The notes below the pieces were generated by a model. The model worked only from the letters and a program-made list of their open reading frames with translations. It had not been told where the DNA came from and did no database searches. A program made the position numbers and the translations under genes. DNA of 64,000 nucleotides from Flavobacteriales bacterium. GTDB taxonomy: Bacteria; Bacteroidota; Bacteroidia; Flavobacteriales_C; GCA-002722245. Of the stretch, positions 3,233-25,341 are shown in pieces. The stretch is taken from assembly GCA_023251095.1 (NCBI GenBank), contig JAHEZL010000014.1, positions 1 to 64,000 of the forward strand, in the 5' to 3' direction. How positions within the stretch are numbered: the stretch's first letter is position 1; each line of letters begins with the position of its first letter.

Positions 3233-3306
3233 GGTCCCGTAGCTTAACTGGATAGAGCATCTGACTACGGATCAGAAGGTTGGGGGTTCGAATCTCTCCG
3301 GGACCA
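3233..3306 (+). tRNA. tRNA-Arg (anticodon ACG)
   Basis: A full cloverleaf can be folded: acceptor GGTCCCG / CGGGACC, D-arm with AACTGGATAGAGC, anticodon stem TCTGA / TCAGA around loop CTACGGA (anticodon ACG, read CGN after A34 to inosine editing), and T-arm GGGGG-TTCGAAT-CTCTC. The discriminator is A at 3306; the following bases (CA) mean the CCA end is not encoded exactly. The 3' end with its flank is repeated 3.5 kb downstream, which marks this tRNA as a probable integration site. Confidence 0.97.
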
Positions 3307-3327
3307 CAAAAATGTAGAAAAGTGTAG
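3304..3327 (+). repeat. direct repeat at the tRNA 3' end, left copy
   Basis: Beginning with the last bases of the tRNA, 24 bases match 6850-6873 at 22 positions, the final 16 being identical (ATGTAGAAAAGTGTAG). This is the arrangement expected of an attachment-site duplication left by an element that integrated at the tRNA 3' end. Weaker relatives of the GTGTAG part occur near 5317 and 5691. Confidence 0.6.
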
Positions 3328-3355
3328 AAAATTAAAGTTTTCTACACTTTTTTTA
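3318..3355 (+). terminator. terminator of tRNA-Arg
   Basis: Hairpin AAAGTGTAGAAAA / TTTTCTACACTTT around a six-base loop, followed by a T run. It begins 12 bases after the tRNA and overlaps the direct repeat at 3304-3327. Confidence 0.8.
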
Positions 3356-3476
3356 TTTTACACTAATGCCAGTTGATACATTTGTAACACAATTTGCCTC
3401 CATTTAAATACATAAAGCTACACCTAGTTCTGACAAATAATATGAATAATAAAAAATGTAAAGATCAGGACTGAGG

Positions 3477-4280
3477 TTAAAACTTCAAATGCCTTTTACT
3501 TTCTCTAAAGACATCATCAAACTTAGGCAAATCATTAATTTGATTCTGTAATTTATTCAACCAATCCTTTCGGAAAGATTGTTCTTTCTTCAATACTTTA
3601 TCAGCAAACTCTTCCGGCTTGTGTCCTTTGTGTTTTGCTTTACCGCTAAATTCAATATCGTGTTCTTTAATTTTCATTCTTTCAACTTCCATTAAATACC
3701 AAAAGTCATATAAATCACGAGGCTCAGTTCTGCCCATCAATGCAGCCATTTTTTCAATTAACACTTCCGACAAGGAATAACATTGCAATGAAAAAGAATC
3801 TTCCGGCACATCGGAATAAACATTGAAAACCTTTCTTTGCACCGGAGAGAATTCCATTTTCTCTCCACGGGTAATATCAACTTTTATATCTCTGCTGCCT
3901 ATGTTCCCTCCCAACGGACCAACATAATTGATGTAAAACTGAGAACTGCCGCTTGCATCGTGAGTATCATCGGCTTTATGACTTAAAGAAATATTCGCTT
4001 CTTCCTTCACCCATTCGTAAACTTCACGCAAATGAGATTTCAGCATTTCATGATCCAGTGATTCATTCAACAAAGTAAAATCAAGATCCTCTGAAAAACG
4101 ATAATTTTCAATATAACATTTCTTTAAAACCGTTCCTCCTTTGAAAACCAAAGCTTTGTTCAATACCTCATGATTGGAAATACCATACAACACCCATGTT
4201 AGAATGTAATCCTTTTCAATTTGCCTATCACTTACTTTATGTTGCGCGGCATATTTGTTTATCTCTTTTGACAAAATCAT
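3477..4280 (-). CDS. AbiEii/AbiGii-family nucleotidyltransferase toxin
   Basis: 267 residues from the ATG at 4280; a TTG two codons earlier is less likely. The family comprises the toxin halves of AbiE-type systems, nucleotidyltransferases that arrest growth, some by modifying tRNAs, and can abort phage infection. The polymerase-beta-like signature is visible: FKGGT at residues 46-50, then Arg61, Ser63, Asp65 and Asp67 (RFSEDLDF), preceded by the conserved KDYILTWVL near 23-31. The antitoxin gene lies immediately upstream with a 2-base gap, so the pair is co-transcribed. It is in the accessory region next to tRNA-Arg. Confidence 0.92.
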   Translation of the reverse strand: MILSKEINKYAAQHKVSDRQIEKDYILTWVLYGISNHEVLNKALVFKGGTVLKKCYIENYRFSEDLDFTLLNESLDHEMLKSHLREVYEWVKEEANISLSHKADDTHDASGSSQFYINYVGPLGGNIGSRDIKVDITRGEKMEFSPVQRKVFNVYSDVPEDSFSLQCYSLSEVLIEKMAALMGRTEPRDLYDFWYLMEVERMKIKEHDIEFSGKAKHKGHKPEEFADKVLKKEQSFRKDWLNKLQNQINDLPKFDDVFRESKRHLKF

Positions 4281-4282
4281 AA

Positions 4283-5110
4283 TCAAGTAAAAATTGGTGA
4301 CAGAATGGATTGTTTATCTATATTTTCCTGGATATTCCAATGAGAAATACTTTTACCCTGCTTAGGATGTGATGGCTCCAACAAGAAATATGAATTTGTT
4401 TTCATTTTTTGAAGTTTAGCAACAATGGAGGATTGAATTTCCAATAATTCTAATAAATAACCCATTCGTTTAGCTACTGCTAAAGAATCAAAATCTTTTA
4501 TGTAATCCAATAATTTTTTGAATTCAATTTGCTCACGGCTTTTGTAAATCGCTTTAGCAATTTCAGTAATACCCCCTGCATACTCAGGCTTAAATAATGC
4601 ATCAACAAAAGTTTTTTCAAGATCGGCACACATTACTTTATTGTGGCTATCTATCCAAGTTTTCTTTGCTCCAAAGAAATGCTTGTCGTTGTGATAAATG
4701 AATTGAAATGATGTATCCCTGATTTTCAACACAGAAGGTTTCATCTGCTTATTTACAACAATTTGTTCTTTCAATGCCGGCTGAGTAATTAGGCTATGAA
4801 CTTGCATTGCCGAATAATAACCGATGTAATATTTTGCATCACCTACTAAGTACTGAGCCAACAAATGCCAATCGGGCATAAATGTGTTTGAATCCTGTTC
4901 GTAAGGAATAATATAATAAACACCTTCCTTCACGCGCATTAACAAACCACGCTTAGTCATGTCACTTAAAAGCTCCAGTAAAGTACTTGAATTAGCATCA
5001 GGAAAGACCTTTTTAGCCTCTTCATTGGAAAAACATAATTTATTTTCATCACCGAAATGCGCCAATAATTGACTTGAACGACTAGAGATATTTTTATATT
5101 TCATATCCAT
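4283..5110 (-). CDS. AbiEi-family antitoxin / transcriptional repressor
   Basis: 275 residues counted from ATG 5110 (MDMKYKNISSRSSQLLAHF); ATG 5104 is equally possible and a GTG at 5161 would add 17 residues that look unlike the family. An N-terminal winged-helix domain (about residues 1-75, with the wing-like RGLLMRVKEGVYYI) is followed by the AbiEi C-terminal domain, including the YYIGYYSAMQVHSL segment. Members bind and repress their own promoter and neutralise the AbiEii toxin. It is first in a two-gene operon with the toxin, spaced by 2 bases. Confidence 0.9.
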   Translation of the reverse strand: MDMKYKNISSRSSQLLAHFGDENKLCFSNEEAKKVFPDANSSTLLELLSDMTKRGLLMRVKEGVYYIIPYEQDSNTFMPDWHLLAQYLVGDAKYYIGYYSAMQVHSLITQPALKEQIVVNKQMKPSVLKIRDTSFQFIYHNDKHFFGAKKTWIDSHNKVMCADLEKTFVDALFKPEYAGGITEIAKAIYKSREQIEFKKLLDYIKDFDSLAVAKRMGYLLELLEIQSSIVAKLQKMKTNSYFLLEPSHPKQGKSISHWNIQENIDKQSILSPIFT

Positions 5111-5391
5111 AAAATCAGCTTTAACCTGATTATAAAGATATGAAATATAAATAAATGGCACAACAAGATAGTTTTTGATAAATTTATTATTACCGTTCGA
5201 GGAATCAAAAGACCTAAAAATTGGGTCTTATCGTTCCGCGAAAGGTAAAAAGAGGAAATTATGTTTTGTGTTTAAATTACTGTTGTTTTTACTCTCAGAA
5301 AACCGAAATACAAAAAGTGTAGGAAAATGAAGGAACATGAAGTTTTTTCAACTTTCCTGAAGTATCTTGAAGTTTATTGACCCATCGCAAT
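5111..5391. other. spacer upstream of the AbiE pair
   Basis: Holds the presumed AbiE promoter region and a degenerate relative of the tRNA-flank repeat (AAAAGTGTAG at 5313-5322, followed by GAAAATGAAG). A TCTTGAAG/TCCTGAAG-type short repetition follows near 5350-5375. No other gene is evident. Confidence 0.4.
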
Positions 5392-5538
5392 ATGAATGAT
5401 ATTACCTTTGAAAACAACAACAAAACGCTCATTGAAATACCCTCTGCAATCTATGGTAATAGGGCTTTACTTAGGTTAACGAGAATATCAATTGACGAAT
5501 ACAAGGTGTTCGAACAAGCGTCGGTGGACTCCACATGA
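5392..5538 (+). CDS. possible 48-residue ORF carrying repeat X copy A
   Basis: ATG 5392 to TGA 5536-5538 encodes MNDITFENNNKTLIEIPSAI followed by YGNRALLRLTRISIDEYKV and FEQASVDST. The second half is conserved in the same frame at the two other repeat copies (near 6516-6596 and 11122-11193), although those lack starts. It may be a real small gene or the 3' remnant of a longer one. The hairpin terminator 4 bases after the stop supports transcription. I do not recognise the family. Confidence 0.35.
   Translation: MNDITFENNNKTLIEIPSAIYGNRALLRLTRISIDEYKVFEQASVDST
5464..5535 (+). repeat. cassette-end repeat X, copy A
   Basis: About 72 bases shared with 6524-6596 and 11122-11193. The first half is diverged. 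The last 36 bases (5500-5535, from TACAAGGTG to GGACTCCACA) differ by one base from copy C. The core contains the 10-base palindrome TGTTCGAACA and is followed by a terminator hairpin, as in the other copies. Confidence 0.85.
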
Positions 5539-5541
5539 GAC

Positions 5542-5575
5542 AAAAAGGCTCCTTTTTTAAGGAGCCTTTTTCTTT
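5542..5575. terminator. hairpin terminator after repeat X copy A
   Basis: AAAAAGGCTCC / GGAGCCTTTTT stem with a TTTTTTAA loop and T run; A and T runs on both sides mean it can work in either direction. The 164 bases from here to the HigA stop hold a faint GTGTAG repeat (5691) and nothing else recognisable. Confidence 0.85.
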
Positions 5576-5739
5576 TCCACACCTCTTATCTCCCTAGCAA
5601 ACCAAGTAATTGATGATTTCAAACTAAGGTGTTCGAGATTTTTTATCTTTTTGACATATTTTCAAGGGAGTCAGAAAAAAAATTAGGAAGGTGTAGGGAA
5701 TTTCAGGTTTGTGCAGATTTTTGCTGTCTCTCTTTTTGT

Positions 5740-6096
5740 TTACGCTGTATGCAAAAATATTTCAGCAGGAAGATGAAAGTAATCTCTTAAGCGTTGTGCC
5801 ATTTTAAGCGTGAGTTCACGTCTTCCCGAAAGGATAGATGAAACATGTCCTTTTGTACCTATGAGGGGTTCAAGATCTTTGTTTTTCATGCCGCGTTCAG
5901 ACATTTTTAGTTTTATTACTTCAATTGGATTTAATTCAGGCAAATGAATGTGTTTGTCCTCATAATCTTTTACCAAAACTAAAAGTAAAGCTAATTCGTC
6001 GGCTTCGGCAGTACCTTCTTCCGCATGAAAAATTGCCATTGTTCTTTTAATGGTTTTTTGATACGCTGCTTCTGTTTTTATTACTTTCCAATTCAT
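5740..6096 (-). CDS. higA: HigA-family antitoxin (XRE-type HTH)
   Basis: 118 residues. The C-terminal half (about 55-112) is a helix-turn-helix of the XRE/Cro type: IEVIKLKMSERGMKNKDLEP, then LIGTKGHVSSILSGRRELTL. The N-terminal half is the helical toxin-binding part. Such antitoxins bind HigB and autorepress the operon. It lies directly after higB on the same strand with one base between, the toxin-first order typical of higBA. The module sits between repeat X copies A and B. Confidence 0.9.
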   Translation of the reverse strand: MNWKVIKTEAAYQKTIKRTMAIFHAEEGTAEADELALLLVLVKDYEDKHIHLPELNPIEVIKLKMSERGMKNKDLEPLIGTKGHVSSILSGRRELTLKMAQRLRDYFHLPAEIFLHTA

Positions 6097-6097
6097 A

Positions 6098-6427
6098 TTA
6101 TTTTGCCTTATAGTTTAAAATCCTGATATCAAATTCAATCGTTTCTACATTTATTTTATCATATTCTTTATGTGTGCCAAACCAAATAATATACGCAGCC
6201 AATTGCTTAAAATTCACAGACACTACTAGTCTGTAATCGTTGCCTTTGATATTGAAAATAACTCTGTTTTTCCCAACTATACTGGCATTTCCATAGGTAG
6301 CTTTCAATTGATTGAAATTTTTAAATTCTTCTTTTAAAAATTCATTGTACCAAGTTAATAGCGGTGTTTGAGCCTGTGGATATTTATCCACATAATATAA
6401 GACCGCTCTTTTAACGATTACATTCAC
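6098..6427 (-). CDS. higB: HigB-family mRNA-interferase toxin
   Basis: 109 residues of the RelE/HigB2 fold; ribosome-dependent cleavage of mRNA is the known activity of the family. The start MNVIVKRAVLYYVDKYPQA matches the family closely and uses a GTG at 6427, as no in-frame ATG is available. Recognisable parts are the GKNRVIFNIKGNDYRLVV strand pair and the C-terminal YIIWFGTHKEYDKI, with the His-x-x-Tyr typical of this branch. First gene of the higBA pair. Confidence 0.9.
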   Translation of the reverse strand: MNVIVKRAVLYYVDKYPQAQTPLLTWYNEFLKEEFKNFNQLKATYGNASIVGKNRVIFNIKGNDYRLVVSVNFKQLAAYIIWFGTHKEYDKINVETIEFDIRILNYKAK

Positions 6428-6523
6428 TATATAAAAATATTAAAAATGTTTTCAAATTGCAAACTATTTGTGATTCTTTTTTCTTTTACAAAGCCACAAC
6501 CCCTATGAATCCCATGGTAACAA

Positions 6524-6596
6524 AGCCTTACTTAAATTCACAAAAGTGTCAATTGATCTATACAAGGTGTTCGAACAAGCATCGGCGGACTCCACA
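6524..6596 (+). repeat. cassette-end repeat X, copy B
   Basis: Second copy. The 36-base core at 6561-6596 differs by one base from copy C (A for G in AAGCATCGG). Upstream, the frame reading GNKALLKFTKVSIDLYKVF is conserved with copy A, but no start codon is available and a stop lies in frame at 6471. Confidence 0.85.
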
Positions 6597-6602
6597 TCCA
6601 AC

Positions 6603-6633
6603 GAAAAAGCCCCTAAAAACAGGGGCTTTTTTC
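6603..6633. terminator. hairpin terminator after repeat X copy B
   Basis: AAAAAGCCCCT / AGGGGCTTTTTT stem with a short A-rich loop and a T run, 7 bases after the repeat core. Sequence unrelated to the stems after copies A and C, but in the same position. Confidence 0.85.
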
Positions 6634-6849
6634 ATACTCAAAAACCTCCTGAATTCATTGTCATTAAAGGAAAGTAGACCAAAGTTAAAAAGCTTCCGGT
6701 CTATTTCATCAGTTTTTCGACGTTCTTTTGTGATTTTGAGGGCTATTTTCAACAAAACCATTGATACCACTAATTATTACGACAAAGGGAAAGGTTCGAC
6801 TCCCTCAGAGATCAAATCTTGCTTTTTTACAGAAAACACAATGAGAACA
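6634..6849. other. non-coding spacer with a tRNA-like scrap
   Basis: No convincing gene. GGTTCGACTCCCTCAGAGATCA (6791-6812 region) resembles the T-loop and 3' end of a tRNA, but its T-stem does not pair and no upstream arms can be found. It may be a relic of an earlier insertion. Confidence 0.3.
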
Positions 6850-6873
6850 CCATAAACATGTAGAAAAGTGTAG
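6850..6873 (+). repeat. direct repeat of the tRNA-Arg 3' flank, right copy
   Basis: 22 of 24 bases match 3304-3327, starting at the position of the tRNA CCA. It is followed by a weak hairpin (TGTAGAAA / TTTCTGCA) and T runs at 6891-6905, so the tRNA terminator seems to have been copied along. Together the copies bracket the AbiE and HigBA modules. Confidence 0.6.
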
Positions 6874-6940
6874 CGAAATGAAGTTTCTGCAGTTTTTTAT
6901 TTTTTACCCAAAGAGGGGGAATAGGGTTTTTATAACCTAA

Positions 6941-7747
6941 TTATTCTTTAATAAACTTAGTCGTTTGGATTATTTTATCCATTTGTAATTGCAAAAAGTA
7001 AATTCCTTCAGAAAGATCGCTAACATCTAATTCAAAATTTTTGGTTTGAATTGCGTTTTCCCGAAGAACTCGACCATTGAGATCTACTACTTTTACATTA
7101 ATTTTCGATCCATCTGTATTCAACGACAAAGATCCTGTAACAGGATTAGGAAAAATTGAAATTAAATTTACTTGATTATTTTCTTTGACTGACCATGAAA
7201 CAAGGTAATTTAATGTATCTGAACACCCATAAATACTTGTTGTAATTAAACTGCATTTATTTGATGCAGGCGAACCTGAGAATAAAATTAAAGGAGGTAT
7301 TTTACTTATAGAACTGTCTGGAGTACCATGATTAAATCTCCAATACCATGACTTTAAAGGATCTATTGAAGTTGTTTGATCAGTAAATTTTATTGAATCA
7401 CCCACAGATGTTAAAATGAAATTAGTTTTCGGAAAATCGTGAACAACGAGATCATTTATTATTGTATCTGTATCTCCACTCAGATTTTTAACAACAAGAG
7501 TAACTGGAAAAGTACCTAAACTATGATAAATATGACTAGGATTTTGAATACCACAACATTTTGTGTTCCCATCTCCAAAATTCCAACTCCAATAATTTAT
7601 CGTTCCATTTTTACTTACTGATGAATCTGAAAAATATGAGGGATTATGTAGACAATTTGAAGAATATGAAAACTTAGCAATGAGACTTTGCGCCTGAGCA
7701 AAGAAATTCAGTGTAGCAAAACATAACGTAATTAAAATTTTATTCAT
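6941..7747 (-). CDS. secreted PKD-domain protein with T9SS type A sorting domain
   Basis: 268 residues. Signal peptide about 1-19, then a PKD domain (about 25-105) with the characteristic WSWNFGDGN and the HIYHSLGTFPVTLVV strand pair. A second, PKD-like segment follows (about 105-185). The C-terminal T9SS type A domain (about 192-268) has FPNPVTGSLSL and ends in KFIKE. PKD domains are beta-sandwich binding or spacer modules; the protein is probably secreted or surface-bound. Its gene lies 56 bases downstream of the larger CARDB gene on the same strand, so the two may be co-transcribed. Confidence 0.88.
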   Translation of the reverse strand: MNKILITLCFATLNFFAQAQSLIAKFSYSSNCLHNPSYFSDSSVSKNGTINYWSWNFGDGNTKCCGIQNPSHIYHSLGTFPVTLVVKNLSGDTDTIINDLVVHDFPKTNFILTSVGDSIKFTDQTTSIDPLKSWYWRFNHGTPDSSISKIPPLILFSGSPASNKCSLITTSIYGCSDTLNYLVSWSVKENNQVNLISIFPNPVTGSLSLNTDGSKINVKVVDLNGRVLRENAIQTKNFELDVSDLSEGIYFLQLQMDKIIQTTKFIKE

Positions 7748-7803
7748 GCGTTCTTTGATTTATCGTATATGTAATACAATAAGCTGACTTGCAAGAGCCT
7801 TGC

Positions 7804-10800
7804 TCAATCCACTTTCATGATTTTTTTACTAAAAACCCCTTCTTGTCCATATATTCTAAGTTCATAAACTCCGGGCGAAAAATTTTCCAAGCTAAACACC
7901 TCCTGTCCGCCTCTACATACTTTCTCAAATAAAATTCTTCCGGAAATATCATATAGGATAATTGTAGCCAACTCCACAGTGTTTAATGATACATAGAGAT
8001 CTTTACTAACAGGATTAGGATAAACATTACATCGAATACCACTCATATCTTCCACCGATTCGGCTTTGCTGATGACAACCATTGTATAATACAGATTGTT
8101 CTTCTCATTGCTTTCAAAAGTTAGATTGGTATAATCAACACAATACAACATATAGTAATTGCCTGCAGGAATATTGGAAGGGAAATAAAAATCATTCGAA
8201 TCCGCCACTCCATAATACCAAGTATCCAGCACTCCAATATGAATATCATTTTCGCCGGGAATTGTGTCACCGGGAATCGTGTCTTTTGACAAGATGCAAG
8301 TTACATTACCTACGGCTTTCCCCCATCCTTTATTACCAACACTTGCCGATACTTTAGCAACTTGGGGAATGCTTATGCTAGATGGACATTTTCCATATTG
8401 GACATATAAATCATTAGGGGGATAAACTACATTCAAAGCACAGTGACCTACATTATTGGATTCATCTGCTTCGTTTTCCGACTGTGTATTGTCGGCATAT
8501 ACCAAAATATAATAAGTCCCTGTAGAGGCAGTATCCGGAATGGTTATGAATGAACATCCTGCAGCTCCCAAAGACGTATTAGGTATGCTACTTCCTTTTT
8601 TCGCCGCCAAAAGCAAGTCGAGACTATCCAAAATCGTATCTGTCGAAAAATAAAAAGCCATATCTGAAGACAATGAGGGTATGGTGCCCCGATTTGCCAG
8701 AGTAGCACACATCGTTTGTACTGAGCCGGCATATACTGAATTATTCATATTCCAAATCCCACCATTAGAGAATGTTAAATCAACATAACGTGGTAAAATC
8801 TTTATTTTAAGAATAGTTTGGTTATTTACCTCATTTGATTCCACTATTTTATCATAGCAGTCAGCACGATATATAAGATAATAATCGCCCGCCAAGGTAC
8901 TCATTGGAATGGTACTCGAAATATAACTAAACGAATATTTTTCGGGAGCAATGCCTTTAACAACTTGTTTCGCTAGCAATTGATCTGTATTGTCATAAAG
9001 GGAATCTGATGATAAGTAAAACCCTATGGAAGAGGTATCGGAATAAGTAGTTCCTAAATTATGCATATACACGCCCAAACCAACACTTTTACCAACCACA
9101 CAGGAATCTGAAAAGGAAGGGTACTCAGCAGCAATATCCGTTAACCTTGGAGTTACATCAATTGAAATTGGTAAAATATTATTTGTAAAATCAGATTCGT
9201 TTAGCACGTTTCCTTTATCAACATACATCAAAACACAGTATTTACCCGGAGATGTCACAGCGGGAATAAGTATGGAATCTGAAAATGATATCGATGCATT
9301 CAAATCAATATTCACTTGCTTAGAACCCAAAGAAACGTCCGACAAATCCCATGTAGAATCCTGAGAGAGATAATAATCAATCCCCGACTCAACCGCCACA
9401 TTTCCATTATTGCTTACTGCATATTTAATTGCAGTTTTATTTCCGGCCGGAACAACTATTTTTTTCACAGAAATAGGCTCTGCTTTCAGTTCATTGAGAG
9501 GGTTGATAACTGTAAATGGCAAAAATACAAGATTGTTATTTTCTTTATTTTCCAAATACTTGTTCGATGGATCGAGACGAAGTACAATAAAATTTTTACC
9601 TGCATTTATACCTGCAGGCAGTGTAAGTGTTTTTTCATTAAAAGCTTTAGGCACCACATAATTGATGTAATTATAATACGAAAGCTTAGTATCTGAAGCA
9701 TCAAATGCTGAATCGGTAGAAAAGTAAAAATTCAAGGTATCCAGGAAAAAACTATACTTGGAAATGGTTTCCAGATAATAATCTATAGTAATCGATTTAT
9801 TCGTCGCAGGATAAGAATAAACATCGCGAAAAATTGTCGCTCCGCTTATAAAAACATCAAAATACTTATTGGAAAAAATGGTGATTTCAGATACAAATAC
9901 ATTATTTTTTTCATTGGTTTCAGCTAAAGTAAAATTATTATCAGCCACTAAAATCAAATAATACGTCCCAACGGGAAAATCCAATGCAATAGGAGTAGAA
10001 ACAGAAAGGTTTTTAGATTTAGCACCTAAAAGATCAGTGATCACCTGAGTTGAAAGCAAACTATCGGAAGGATCAAAGATGCTATCCTTCGACAAATAGA
10101 ATCCTGTGTTGACTTTAGAAATACTGGAAGAGCCTCCATTCTGGATAGTGTAATTCAGCCAAAATGAGTTTCCTCCAAATAAATTGGATGGTGCCGATAT
10201 ATTAGTAGGATATATATCAACTCCCGGAGAACTTACTTCAATAGTAGCATACCAAACGTTATTGTTTTCTTTTGTCTCTTTTATCTTTTTGTCATAATCA
10301 GCAATCGCCATTAAATAATAGCCACCTCCAGGCACATCTGAAGGAATGATGCAATTGCTCCATTCTTTAGATATGGAGGAAGAAGAATTAACACTGCCCA
10401 AAGCTTGACTTCCTAAGAATATATCCGTGGAATCCATTTGTGTATCCTTAGACAAAAAAAGGCCCATCGATGATGCATAAGAAATTCCTTCTCCAATGTT
10501 TTTCAGAGTCGGATTAAAATAAATTTGTTGACCAGGATTAATGAAAGAATAGGAAGCGCCTAAATAACCCGTCACAATAAGATCAGGCAAGGGAAACTCC
10601 TGCACACACTCAAAACTCATTAAAAAACCACGATAACCTGAATAAGACGAAGTAGAATGCCTGAGCGTTAAGGATCCTGAAACTGAAGTGGCATATATAT
10701 CCTGAGGTATAGCAGAGCCAGAAAATTCTCCAATTAAAGGGGCAGTAGTATTTATTCCATCATATACATACAACCTTCCATAATCATGCATATTCAAATC

Positions 10801-11022
10801 TTGAAAAGAAATTTTAATATATTCTCCAGGAATGGCAGGCGAAATAACTAAAATGCCATCATTACTTTTATTATCATAACCACTCCCTGCAGGGTCGCTA
10901 ATTGTACCGGATACAACCACAATGGTATCAGTACTGAAATAAGGAACTTTATATTGGGAAAACAACTGAGTACAACAAAAAAGGCCAATAGTCGACAAAT
11001 AATATTTAAAAAATGATCTCAT
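7804..11022 (-). CDS. large secreted CUB and CARDB-repeat protein, T9SS cargo
   Basis: 1072 residues with a signal peptide (about 1-22). A CUB-like domain covers about 25-140 (GRLYVYDGINTTAPLIGEFS, SGSLTLRHSTSSYSGY). About seven CARDB-type beta-sandwich repeats follow, each with an FYLSxDS-like strand and a YYLILVADxxxxxxExNExNN turn. The C-terminal 80 residues form a T9SS type A domain (VYPNPVSKDLYVSL to the final KIMKVD). Such proteins are secreted across the outer membrane; adhesion is a likely but unproven role. Located between repeat X copies B and C, upstream of the PKD protein. Confidence 0.88.
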   Translation of the reverse strand: MRSFFKYYLSTIGLFCCTQLFSQYKVPYFSTDTIVVVSGTISDPAGSGYDNKSNDGILVISPAIPGEYIKISFQDLNMHDYGRLYVYDGINTTAPLIGEFSGSAIPQDIYATSVSGSLTLRHSTSSYSGYRGFLMSFECVQEFPLPDLIVTGYLGASYSFINPGQQIYFNPTLKNIGEGISYASSMGLFLSKDTQMDSTDIFLGSQALGSVNSSSSISKEWSNCIIPSDVPGGGYYLMAIADYDKKIKETKENNNVWYATIEVSSPGVDIYPTNISAPSNLFGGNSFWLNYTIQNGGSSSISKVNTGFYLSKDSIFDPSDSLLSTQVITDLLGAKSKNLSVSTPIALDFPVGTYYLILVADNNFTLAETNEKNNVFVSEITIFSNKYFDVFISGATIFRDVYSYPATNKSITIDYYLETISKYSFFLDTLNFYFSTDSAFDASDTKLSYYNYINYVVPKAFNEKTLTLPAGINAGKNFIVLRLDPSNKYLENKENNNLVFLPFTVINPLNELKAEPISVKKIVVPAGNKTAIKYAVSNNGNVAVESGIDYYLSQDSTWDLSDVSLGSKQVNIDLNASISFSDSILIPAVTSPGKYCVLMYVDKGNVLNESDFTNNILPISIDVTPRLTDIAAEYPSFSDSCVVGKSVGLGVYMHNLGTTYSDTSSIGFYLSSDSLYDNTDQLLAKQVVKGIAPEKYSFSYISSTIPMSTLAGDYYLIYRADCYDKIVESNEVNNQTILKIKILPRYVDLTFSNGGIWNMNNSVYAGSVQTMCATLANRGTIPSLSSDMAFYFSTDTILDSLDLLLAAKKGSSIPNTSLGAAGCSFITIPDTASTGTYYILVYADNTQSENEADESNNVGHCALNVVYPPNDLYVQYGKCPSSISIPQVAKVSASVGNKGWGKAVGNVTCILSKDTIPGDTIPGENDIHIGVLDTWYYGVADSNDFYFPSNIPAGNYYMLYCVDYTNLTFESNEKNNLYYTMVVISKAESVEDMSGIRCNVYPNPVSKDLYVSLNTVELATIILYDISGRILFEKVCRGGQEVFSLENFSPGVYELRIYGQEGVFSKKIMKVD

Positions 11023-11121
11023 CTTAAAAATTCTATCTAGTTAAACGCATGAAATTTACTGCAAAACAGTGAATAAATGAAATTATTATTTCTTCGCTAG
11101 GTAAATCATCAATCATATAAG

Positions 11122-11193
11122 GATTTACTCAGATTAACAAGAACATCGATTGATCGGTACAAGGTGTTCGAACAAGCGTCGGCGGACTCCACA
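11122..11193 (+). repeat. cassette-end repeat X, copy C
   Basis: Third copy, with core 11158-11193. The frame reads LLRLTRTSIDRYKVFEQ and runs on to KQKA before a stop; a TAG in frame at 11098 and lack of ATG make it a relic. Upstream, 11023-11121 is the presumed promoter region of the CARDB gene. No gene is visible in 11023-11353 apart from this repeat and its terminator. Confidence 0.85.
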
Positions 11194-22908: not shown

Positions 22909-25341
22909 CTACTTTCCTTTTTTTAATAACGAAAGGGCCAAAACCTCACCTGCATTTTTAACATAATGGAATTTTAAACCCTGTACATATTTAGAATTTA
23001 TTTCCTCTATGTCTTTTTTATTTTCTTCCGATAAAATAATCTCTTTAATGTTGGCTCTTCTGGCAGCAAGGATTTTTTCTTTAATTCCTCCAACAGGCAA
23101 TACTCTTCCGCGAAGCGTGATTTCACCCGTCATCGCCAATTTATTTTTTACTTTTCTTCCGCTGAAAACAGAAGCCAATGCTGTTAACATCGTGATACCT
23201 GCCGATGGCCCGTCTTTAGGCGTTGCACCTTCAGGAACGTGAACATGCACATTATTATTTTCAAACATTTCCGGATCAATTCCTAATGCAGAAGAATGTG
23301 ATTTTAAATATTCCAAAGCGAGCACAGCCGACTCTTTCATTACATCGCCCAAATTTCCTGTGAGGGTTAATTTCCCTTTCCCTTTGCTTAAACTCACTTC
23401 AATAAACAAAATATCTCCACCTACGGCAGTCCATGCTAAACCGGTAACAACACCAATGTGATCATTGCCTTCATACTTATCTTTCATGCGTGCCGGTCCG
23501 AGTATTTTTTGCAAACCGGCCACAGAAACTTTTTTCTCCACCTTCTCTCCTATCACTATATTTTTGGCCTGATTGCGGACTACCTTAGCAATTTTCTTTT
23601 CCAAAGAACGCACACCTGATTCGCGGGTATAACCTTCAATGATAGCTTCAATCACTTCTTTGTCAAAAGTGATTTGAGTTTCTTTCAAACCGTGTTCTTT
23701 AATTTGTTTAGGAATCAAATGTTTTTTAGAAATTTCAATTTTCTCTTCTTCCGTATAACCAGTCACATCAATGATTTCCAAACGATCTCGCAGTGCAGGT
23801 TGAATACTGCTCAAGGAATTTGCGGTAGCGATGAAAAGGATTTTTGATAAATCGTAATCCATTTCCACATAGTTGTCATAAAACTTATCGTTTTGCTCAG
23901 GATCCAAAACTTCTAATAAAGCAGAAGAAGGATCTCCGTGATTGTCGCGTGTTACCTTATCAATTTCATCCAGCACAAAAACAGGATTAGATGATTTTGA
24001 TTTTTTTAAATTCTGAATAATTCTGCCCGGCATCGCGCCGATGTAGGTTTTTCGGTGACCGCGTATTTCCGCTTCATCGCGGATACCACCCAAACTCATC
24101 CGCACGTATTTTCTGCCTAAAGCCTCAGCAATAGATTTCCCTAAAGAAGTTTTACCCACGCCGGGAGGTCCGTACAAACAAAGAATAGGAGCCTTCATGT
24201 CTTTTTTCAAAGACAGTACAGCTAAGTGTTCCAGGATTCTTTCTTTCACCTCATCCAAACCGTAATGATCGCGGTTCAATATTTTTTTGGCTTTCTTTAA
24301 ATCGAAATCATCTTCGGTAAACTCGTTCCACGGTAGATCAGTCAGCACTTCCAGGTAATTCAAACTCACCGAATATTCGGAAGCCTGCGGATTCATTCTT
24401 TGTAATTTCTGAATTTCTTTATCGAAATGAAGCTGAACTTCCTTGCCCCATTTTTTCAATTTCGCTTTTTCTTTTATCGCCTCAACTTCACGATCGTTAG
24501 AATTAACGCCCAGTTCCTCTTGTATGGTTTTTAATTGCTGATTTAAAAAATATTCGCGTTGTTGTTCATCAATACCCACTTTTACTTTGGATTGAATTTG
24601 GTTTTTCAACTCCAACATCTGTAGTTCCTTAGTCAGATGCCCCAAAGCAGCCGTTGCTCTTTCGGAAAGATCACTGATCTCCAGCATTTTTTGTTTTTCC
24701 TGAACAGGAAGATTCATGTTGGAGGCAATGAAATTCACCAGAAATGACGGACTCTCAATGTTCTTGATCGCAAAGGCCGCATCGGAAGGAATATTGGGTG
24801 ATTGCTTGATAATCTGCAAAGCCAGATCTTTCAATGAAGAAACCGTTGCAGAGAAATTTTTATCGTTCGCTTTCGGACGTGTTTCCGTCAATTGCTTAAC
24901 CTTCCCCATGATGTAAGGATCCTCTTTCGCAACGCCTGTAATTTCAAAGCGGCGTTTTCCCTGAATGATCACGGTAGTATTTCCATCGGGCATTCTCAAT
25001 ACTTTCATGATAAGAGCCACCGAACCGATTTTATTCAAATCGTTGAATCCGGGCTCTTCTACTTCAGTATCTTTTTGAGAAATCACACCAATGATCTTGT
25101 CTTTTCTGTAGGATTCCTGAATGAGTTTAATGGATTTATCGCGGCTCACCGTAATTGGAATCACCACGCCCGGGAACAAAACCGTGTTGCGCAAAGGCAA
25201 AATCGGTAATTCGGCAGGAACCTGAAAAGTGTTGGAATTGTCGTCTTCATCAGTAGTCATTAACGGAATGAATTCCGTTTCATCATCCAGAATATTGGTG
25301 ACTATCATTGGATTTATTTCAAATTTATCGTCGTTCTTCAT
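22909..25341 (-). CDS. lon: ATP-dependent Lon protease
   Basis: 810 residues, family length. N-terminal substrate-binding LON domain (about 45-240, LPILPLRNTVLFPGVVIP), coiled region, AAA+ module with Walker A GPPGVGKTS at about 391-399, and a C-terminal serine-lysine protease domain with the catalytic Ser near 713 (DGPSAG) and Lys near 754 (GGIKEKILAARR). It degrades misfolded and regulatory proteins in the cytoplasm. Single gene; no clear heat-shock promoter recognised upstream. Confidence 0.98.
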   Translation of the reverse strand: MKNDDKFEINPMIVTNILDDETEFIPLMTTDEDDNSNTFQVPAELPILPLRNTVLFPGVVIPITVSRDKSIKLIQESYRKDKIIGVISQKDTEVEEPGFNDLNKIGSVALIMKVLRMPDGNTTVIIQGKRRFEITGVAKEDPYIMGKVKQLTETRPKANDKNFSATVSSLKDLALQIIKQSPNIPSDAAFAIKNIESPSFLVNFIASNMNLPVQEKQKMLEISDLSERATAALGHLTKELQMLELKNQIQSKVKVGIDEQQREYFLNQQLKTIQEELGVNSNDREVEAIKEKAKLKKWGKEVQLHFDKEIQKLQRMNPQASEYSVSLNYLEVLTDLPWNEFTEDDFDLKKAKKILNRDHYGLDEVKERILEHLAVLSLKKDMKAPILCLYGPPGVGKTSLGKSIAEALGRKYVRMSLGGIRDEAEIRGHRKTYIGAMPGRIIQNLKKSKSSNPVFVLDEIDKVTRDNHGDPSSALLEVLDPEQNDKFYDNYVEMDYDLSKILFIATANSLSSIQPALRDRLEIIDVTGYTEEEKIEISKKHLIPKQIKEHGLKETQITFDKEVIEAIIEGYTRESGVRSLEKKIAKVVRNQAKNIVIGEKVEKKVSVAGLQKILGPARMKDKYEGNDHIGVVTGLAWTAVGGDILFIEVSLSKGKGKLTLTGNLGDVMKESAVLALEYLKSHSSALGIDPEMFENNNVHVHVPEGATPKDGPSAGITMLTALASVFSGRKVKNKLAMTGEITLRGRVLPVGGIKEKILAARRANIKEIILSEENKKDIEEINSKYVQGLKFHYVKNAGEVLALSLLKKGK

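Follow-up and report, generated by a model that had tools for sequence, protein, structure and literature searches.

The window analysed here, a 64,000-nucleotide stretch from a Flavobacteriales bacterium (GenBank assembly GCA_023251095.1, contig JAHEZL010000014.1, positions 1 to 64,000), carries a tRNA-Arg(acg) gene followed by three consecutive accessory blocks—an AbiE pair, a HigBA pair and two proteins of the type IX secretion system (T9SS)-sorted kind—each closed by a copy of the same repeat. It is highly likely that these repeats are attR-type right ends of large serine recombinase (LSR) elements that insert at the 3′ ends of tRNA and transfer-messenger RNA (tmRNA) genes and have their attP site inside the 3′ coding end of the LSR gene.

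A tandem array beside tRNA-Arg

The repeat copies lie at 5464–5535, 6524–6596 and 11122–11193. Their last 36 bases read TACAAGGTGTTCGAACAAGC[A/G]TCGG[C/T]GGACTCCACA, with 34 of 36 positions invariant and two variable, and each core is followed, about 4–7 bases away, by a hairpin terminator of unrelated sequence. A first-pass annotation had described these copies with their 34/36 core, the terminators and the gene content of the three blocks (AbiEii/AbiEi, HigBA and two T9SS-sorted proteins), and re-examination bore out each of these points. The core pattern, with at most one mismatch, has five matches in the genome versus none for a reversed control pattern, which rules out chance; three are in the window, the others are on contigs C3 and C27, and a diverged sixth copy also lies on C27. 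At up to three mismatches, the source genome is the only one among 60 that has the core: its conservation is local at the DNA level, and not local at the protein level.

We refined the functional boundary to a CAC whose last base is the penultimate base of each core. The terminator beyond this CAC is part of either the following left end or the chromosome, which would explain why the terminators in the window are dissimilar in sequence. Each copy is the right end (the attR half) of an integrative element and not an attC site, a view of attC that the first-pass annotation had also taken, with reserve; the elements have two different ends. The sharp step from diverged sequence to a near-perfect core of 33–36 bp would fit a recombinase-binding half-site beside the crossover. 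The features of the array are as follows.

3233–3307, plus strand: tRNA-Arg(acg) (ARAGORN), the attachment target, whose 3′ end GGGACCACA contains the junction CAC; in the congener G004 this tRNA occurs with no AbiE block behind it
3308–3360, no strand: left end of element 1, a hairpin (AAAAGTGTAGAAAA..TTTTCTACACTTTT) that adjoins the tRNA CACA, common to left ends on C3, C27, G001, G003, G106, L031 and L034
3477–5161, minus strand: cargo 1, AbiEii (3477–4286) and AbiEi (4283–5161) (Pfam PF08843; PADLOC AbiEii/AbiEi)
5454–5535, minus strand: right end 1, LSR tail coding from the GTG at 5534 (VESTDACSNTLYSSIDILVNLSKALLP, then stop), with the conserved core and the junction CAC at 5532–5534
5536–5680, minus strand: left end of element 2, a hairpin (AAAAAGGCTCC..GGAGCCTTTTT) with the heavily decayed remnant of an LSR-like C terminus, aligning with the sequence after tRNA-Arg in G004
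5740–6427, minus strand: cargo 2, HigA antitoxin (5740–6096) and HigB toxin (6098–6427) (PADLOC PD-Lambda-2)
6506–6596, minus strand: right end 2, LSR tail coding from the GTG at 6595 (VESADACSNTLYRSIDTFVNLSKALLPWDS, then stop)
6849–6890, no strand: probable left end of element 3, a diverged GTGTAG-type hairpin, 84% identical to the left end after tRNA-Arg
6941–11022, minus strand: cargo 3, two T9SS-sorted proteins, PKD (6941–7747) and CARDB/CUB (7804–11022)
11112–11193, minus strand: right end 3, LSR tail coding from the GTG at 11192 (VESADACSNTLYRSIDVLVNLSKSLYD, then stop)

Element 1 (3308–5535) is AbiE with a recombinase-less GTGTAG-hairpin left end, and this hairpin is probably the new terminator of the tRNA. 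Element 2 runs from 5536 to right end 2 at 6596 and comprises a hairpin, the weak LSR-like remnant and HigBA; element 3 probably extends from the left end at 6849 through the T9SS block to right end 3 at 11193. No intact LSR was found in the window, only the weak remnant, and the first-pass annotation had likewise seen no recombinase there. The blocks are recombinase-less or decayed elements.

The congener G004 matches the window in the upstream gene and in tRNA-Arg(acg), which is directly followed there by a hairpin, AAAAAAGCTCC..GGAGCTTTTTT, whose counterpart in the window stands after right end 1. When the window flanks of 3308–5535 are joined in silico, they give one continuous alignment with G004 through the hairpin; the AbiE block is therefore an insertion between the tRNA CAC(A) and the hairpin. 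This supplies an empty site of the kind that the first-pass annotation had proposed looking for. The terminator after right end 1 had been considered as the native terminator of the tRNA, an assignment that we replaced: the sequence resembles a hairpin from an older left end of the LSR type, also present in G004.

Two further features of the window were noted. The stretch 6597–6848, which separates right end 2 from the probable left end of element 3, contains a piece resembling a tRNA 3′ end, GGTTCGACTCCCTCAGAGATCA, near 6796. A long inverted repeat (CGTCATTGCGAAATTTTTGTACTCAAAAATGAAGCAACCTCA and its complement) at 1395–1530, behind a DNA polymerase clamp-like gene, is possibly an element resembling a repetitive extragenic palindrome or a small transposon-derived element.

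Two-ended elements and the recombinase gene

A second conserved motif occurs at these blocks, a CAC and, after it, a hairpin of the kind AAAAGTGTAGAAAA..TTTTCTACACTTTT. This left end is mostly a GTGTAGAAAA-type hairpin directly after a tRNA or after another core. In the source genome it follows the window tRNA-Arg, the core copy on C3 and a degenerate core on C27; elsewhere it follows tRNA-Arg(tct) in the congener G003, a non-tRNA site in G001, ssrA in G106, and tRNA-Arg(cct) and tRNA-Arg(ccg) in two other metagenome-assembled genomes (MAGs). A right end resembling the core lies downstream of nearly all of these left ends, although none was found behind the copy on C3. The cargos between the two ends include AbiE, SoFic-type Fic proteins, HipBA, a zeta/AAA protein, DUF3800, Bro-N and an AbiEii-type nucleotidyltransferase. 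The insertion point is a short NCAC common to target and right end, in agreement with the G004 comparison, and the base preceding CAC is the same in both even if it is not C (GCAC at tRNA-Leu, TCAC at tRNA-Arg(tct)). The first-pass annotation had proposed recombination-site ends of accessory elements accumulating beside a tRNA, and the two-ended elements, together with the congener that lacks AbiE, agree with that proposal.

Several individual loci deserve description. On C3 of the source genome (G000; L006:6059–6180), a right-end core is joined directly to a GTGTAG left end (GGACTCCAC to CAAAAATGAAGAAAAGTGTAG); the junction resembles attP and lies behind a glucosidase-like gene, and a Fic gene comes next, with no right end found beyond it. 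On contig C119 of G003 (L028:5855–7984), a tyrosine-integrase-like N-terminal fragment and a complete-looking transposase gene are enclosed by two almost identical right ends spaced about 2 kb apart. In another Bacteroidetes MAG, tRNA-Val(gac) is followed by a GTGTAG-type hairpin (L036:170–285).

Read on the minus strand from CAC (GTG, Val) inward, all 11 right-end copies first collected are open and encode one peptide family, exemplified by VESADACSNTLYRSIDVLVNLSKSLYD and VDFTDKISNQLLKDIEVLSELKRYISNH, with 26–30 conserved residues, the first of which is encoded at the recombination point itself. When a profile built from the peptide was searched over 395 genomes of the class, 15 genomes from seven families had matches with E of about 1e-5 or lower, some of them several, all in short frames and after different cargos; several of these matches lie beside tRNA-Arg or ssrA. 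Thus, many genomes carry one or several copies behind different cargos, the pattern that the first-pass annotation had named as support for its proposal. Over 72 nucleotides, 31 of 35 right-end copies were scored as open, versus 19% for shuffled sequence; two of the four others should be G003 copies that were scored out of register, as a copy re-read in the right register is open. The ratio of nonsynonymous to synonymous polymorphism (pN/pS) in the VDFTDK group is 0.16 in the tail frame versus 0.40–4.1 in the five other frames, with a weaker contrast in the window's own genus (0.61 versus 0.65–1.42). These ratios indicate that the tail frame is under selection at the protein level. A forward-strand protein reading of the core (YKVFEQASADST), plausible within one genome, was rejected; it has stops in G001 and G003.

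Intact LSR genes (PF00239, PF07508) lie at ssrA and tRNA-Arg in the same genomes and read toward the RNA gene; the source genome has one of 522 amino acids at ssrA on contig C38. Their reading frames cross the CAC/GTG into the antisense strand of the RNA gene, ending, for example, in DFSVSSLG followed by VEPEGVEPSSKKGNC and a stop, or in IEVLSHG followed by VASERFEPPTF and a stop. By our own count, 21 of 28 LSR open reading frames (ORFs) in genomes sampled for right ends run into an antisense RNA gene, the genes entered being those for tRNA-Asn, Leu, Ser, Met, Phe, Val and Arg and tmRNA. In a sample drawn across the phylum without regard to right ends, 16 of 30 LSR ORFs were flagged as crossing, an approximate figure given that a few flags are loose. 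Two LSR elements in G106 have both ends and the same two recombinase domains: one on C8, from tRNA-Met (66177–66251) to a right end near 103050, and one on C4, from tRNA-Leu (24452–24534) to a right end near 49.3 kb. The first (L194–L195, 66.2–103 kb) looks phage- or plasmid-type, and the second (L196–L197, 24.5–49.3 kb) contains restriction-modification-like and other defence-like genes. A small ORF directly upstream of the ssrA LSR gene in G000 (L156:2130–2320) and G003 (L157:2320–2510) might encode a recombination directionality factor.

If attP lies inside the LSR gene, a right end that abuts an LSR left end should restore the recombinase C terminus in frame, and this is what is seen. On contig C114 of G004, the last approximately 58 LSR residues, ending in TIVSSTFPEKLFFDREKYRTPRINEIILRALNADKGFRKSKSGLTPQNLVLSAL, run in frame into VDFTDIFSNSFLLDLQNLSALTNLIVKSI and a stop; this gene has a frame break just upstream of the rejoined part, near the contig end. 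The ssrA LSR of G001 matches it through the junction Val and then continues with EPEGVEPSSKKGN from ssrA. Rejoining also occurs in G172 C144, G168 C94, G001 C2 and G106 C4, with stops further upstream. These sequences place attP inside the LSR 3′ coding end and identify the right-end peptide as the C-terminal tail of LSRs. The rejoined tails, the two-ended G106 elements and the matching base before CAC identify the window core as the recombinase-tail end of an LSR system. Conservation of the core as both DNA and protein is what would be expected of an LSR-binding half-site of 33–36 bp. The first-pass annotation had named the 3′ end of a single gene family as the finding that would overturn its reading, and that alternative is half true: the LSR gene has its 3′ coding end in the core, which persists because that end is also the attachment site.

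The tail peptide was not found in phages and plasmids, which yielded only distant LSRs of less than 60% identity. Viral contigs gave no match to the LSR and none to the left-end pattern, and their 27 matches to the core pattern, none with a second end, are read as chance. The tail profile gave no convincing right end at five LSR elements in other families, and their tails therefore differ or lie elsewhere.

Proposed mechanism and alternatives

We propose that LSR elements use the 3′ ends of tRNA and tmRNA genes as insertion sites and cross over within NCAC. The left end of an autonomous element would carry the LSR up to the Val codon (GTG, which is CAC on the other strand) and the right end its last 26–30 codons; integration would split the gene, leaving the tail at the right end while the LSR reads on in frame into the antisense strand of the tRNA or ssrA. 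Each insertion would bring a hairpin able to replace the tRNA terminator. The window would be a tandem array without a recombinase, comprising AbiE with a GTGTAG-hairpin left end, HigBA with a decayed LSR-type left end and the T9SS block, and resident LSRs, such as that at ssrA on C38, may mobilise such recombinase-less elements in trans. The two ends, the NCAC insertion behind tRNA or ssrA, the LSR coding in the right end, the in-frame replacement by tRNA-coded residues and the presence or absence of AbiE are read directly from sequence; the tail exchange might also alter LSR behaviour and have a regulatory role. More tentatively, the exchange of C termini (the enzyme's own tail in the circle, a tRNA-antisense tail in the chromosome) could be a built-in directionality switch, with resident ssrA and tRNA LSRs mobilising arrays of tiny recombinase-less defence elements as a serine-recombinase counterpart of the integron; we regard this combined proposal as possible and rather doubtful.

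Several observations weigh against the LSR interpretation. No full-length LSR with the tail was found in the 395 genomes, a negative result that would be expected if only the circle has the tail form. The GTGTAG left end does not encode LSR sequence; we infer that it is an LSR half-site, and binding there is presumed. The LSR match of the element 2 remnant is weak in the window and, in G004, weak but in place. No right end was identified for the LSR at ssrA in the source genome, PF07508 has no match in four genomes with right ends, the presence/absence evidence is a single pair (the window and G004), and most genomes compared are metagenome assemblies.

Alternatively, the right ends would be mere relics of dead LSR elements that lost their recombinase and interior, with adjoining cargo never mobilised as a unit afterwards. 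In favour, the left end before HigBA is of a decayed LSR type and broken LSR remnants adjoin several right ends, but the AbiE element is precisely absent from G004 and the same non-LSR left end accompanies different cargos in several genera and targets; we consider this explanation unlikely, although it carries more weight than any other alternative. Tyrosine-integrase islands, in which the GTGTAGAAAA repeats at both ends would be integrase arm sites and the core a tRNA-like att site, would account for the ten-base repeats near both ends, the tRNA and ssrA targets and the integrase remnant on G003 C119. However, no right-end contig has a Phage_integrase match, attL and attR share only 4–6 bases, and the right end is LSR coding sequence in frame, an identity that largely refutes such islands and makes them very improbable.

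A free-standing gene for a small protein or RNA would explain the terminator after the core and the conserved frame of 26–30 codons starting with GTG. That idea is a little more improbable still: apart from the tRNA nothing scored above the Rfam threshold, the frame leads inward from the junction with no conservation outside it, and in several genomes LSR coding sequence continues directly into the tail. Cassettes of the integron kind, each with a single attC-like site, were suggested by the short tandem cargos closed by the same core and by the inverted repeat TGTTCGAACA; they are the least probable of all, refuted by the two different ends of each element, with left ends adjoining tRNA or ssrA and LSR coding in the right end. 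The first-pass annotation had spoken of cassette ends in an array, of which the array of accessory elements stands and single-site cassettes do not, since attL- and attR-type ends differ.

Implications and known systems

On the LSR interpretation, the small elements stacked behind a tRNA mostly carry toxin–antitoxin or phage-defence genes, and their ends offer an exact way to delimit many small defence islands. LSR sequences of this type taken from chromosomes would lack the native C terminus and carry a tRNA-antisense one. Tail exchange offers a directly testable hypothesis of how LSR direction is controlled, and genome-engineering tools based on LSRs give it practical interest.

Integron cassettes also line up short, varied cargos in tandem, but each has a single attC site served by an IntI-type tyrosine recombinase, whereas the elements here have two ends, a serine recombinase and no attC structure, and no tyrosine integrase occurs on right-end contigs. 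Cis-mobilizable elements (CIMEs) are att-flanked derivatives of integrative and conjugative elements (ICEs), arranged as attL–cargo–attR without a recombinase, that accrete in tandem at tRNAs. The window elements, att-flanked and recombinase-less, share this layout and may likewise be moved in trans; CIMEs are described as derived from ICEs, whereas the related autonomous elements here are LSR elements.

The blocks in the window resemble pseudo-SCC islands. Staphylococcal cassette chromosome (SCC) and pseudo-SCC elements likewise use an LSR, insert at the 3′ end of a conserved gene and include recombinase-less members, tandem accretion and defence cargo such as type I restriction-modification; unlike them, the system described here involves tRNA-Arg, other tRNAs and ssrA instead of rlmH and the recombinases CcrA/B/C, and has no rlmH insertion with a Ccr complex. 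For SCC, the recombinase gene is not described as including the att site, whereas the right end here is LSR coding (PMC10581047). In the integration-dependent immunity of mycobacteriophage BPs, attP is also inside a coding sequence and integration changes the C terminus of the product, but the split gene encodes the repressor and not the recombinase (PMC4557955).

Closest in layout are the ‘suicidal’ integrases of the archaeal SSV1 type, in which attP lies inside the recombinase gene and integration splits it. Those are tyrosine recombinases in which the split separates the catalytic domain, whereas here a protein with serine recombinase domains exchanges no more than a short C-terminal tail for one encoded by the tRNA (PMC8371274); the enzyme may well stay active after integration. 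According to a 2021 review, self-splitting recombinases are exclusively archaeal, those covered being tyrosine-type (PMC8371274). For an attP located within a bacterial serine recombinase gene we found no precedent in the literature searched, which did not extend to preprints or most subscription journals. On the sequences compared here, the self-splitting layout now extends to bacterial large serine recombinases, and widely in Bacteroidota.

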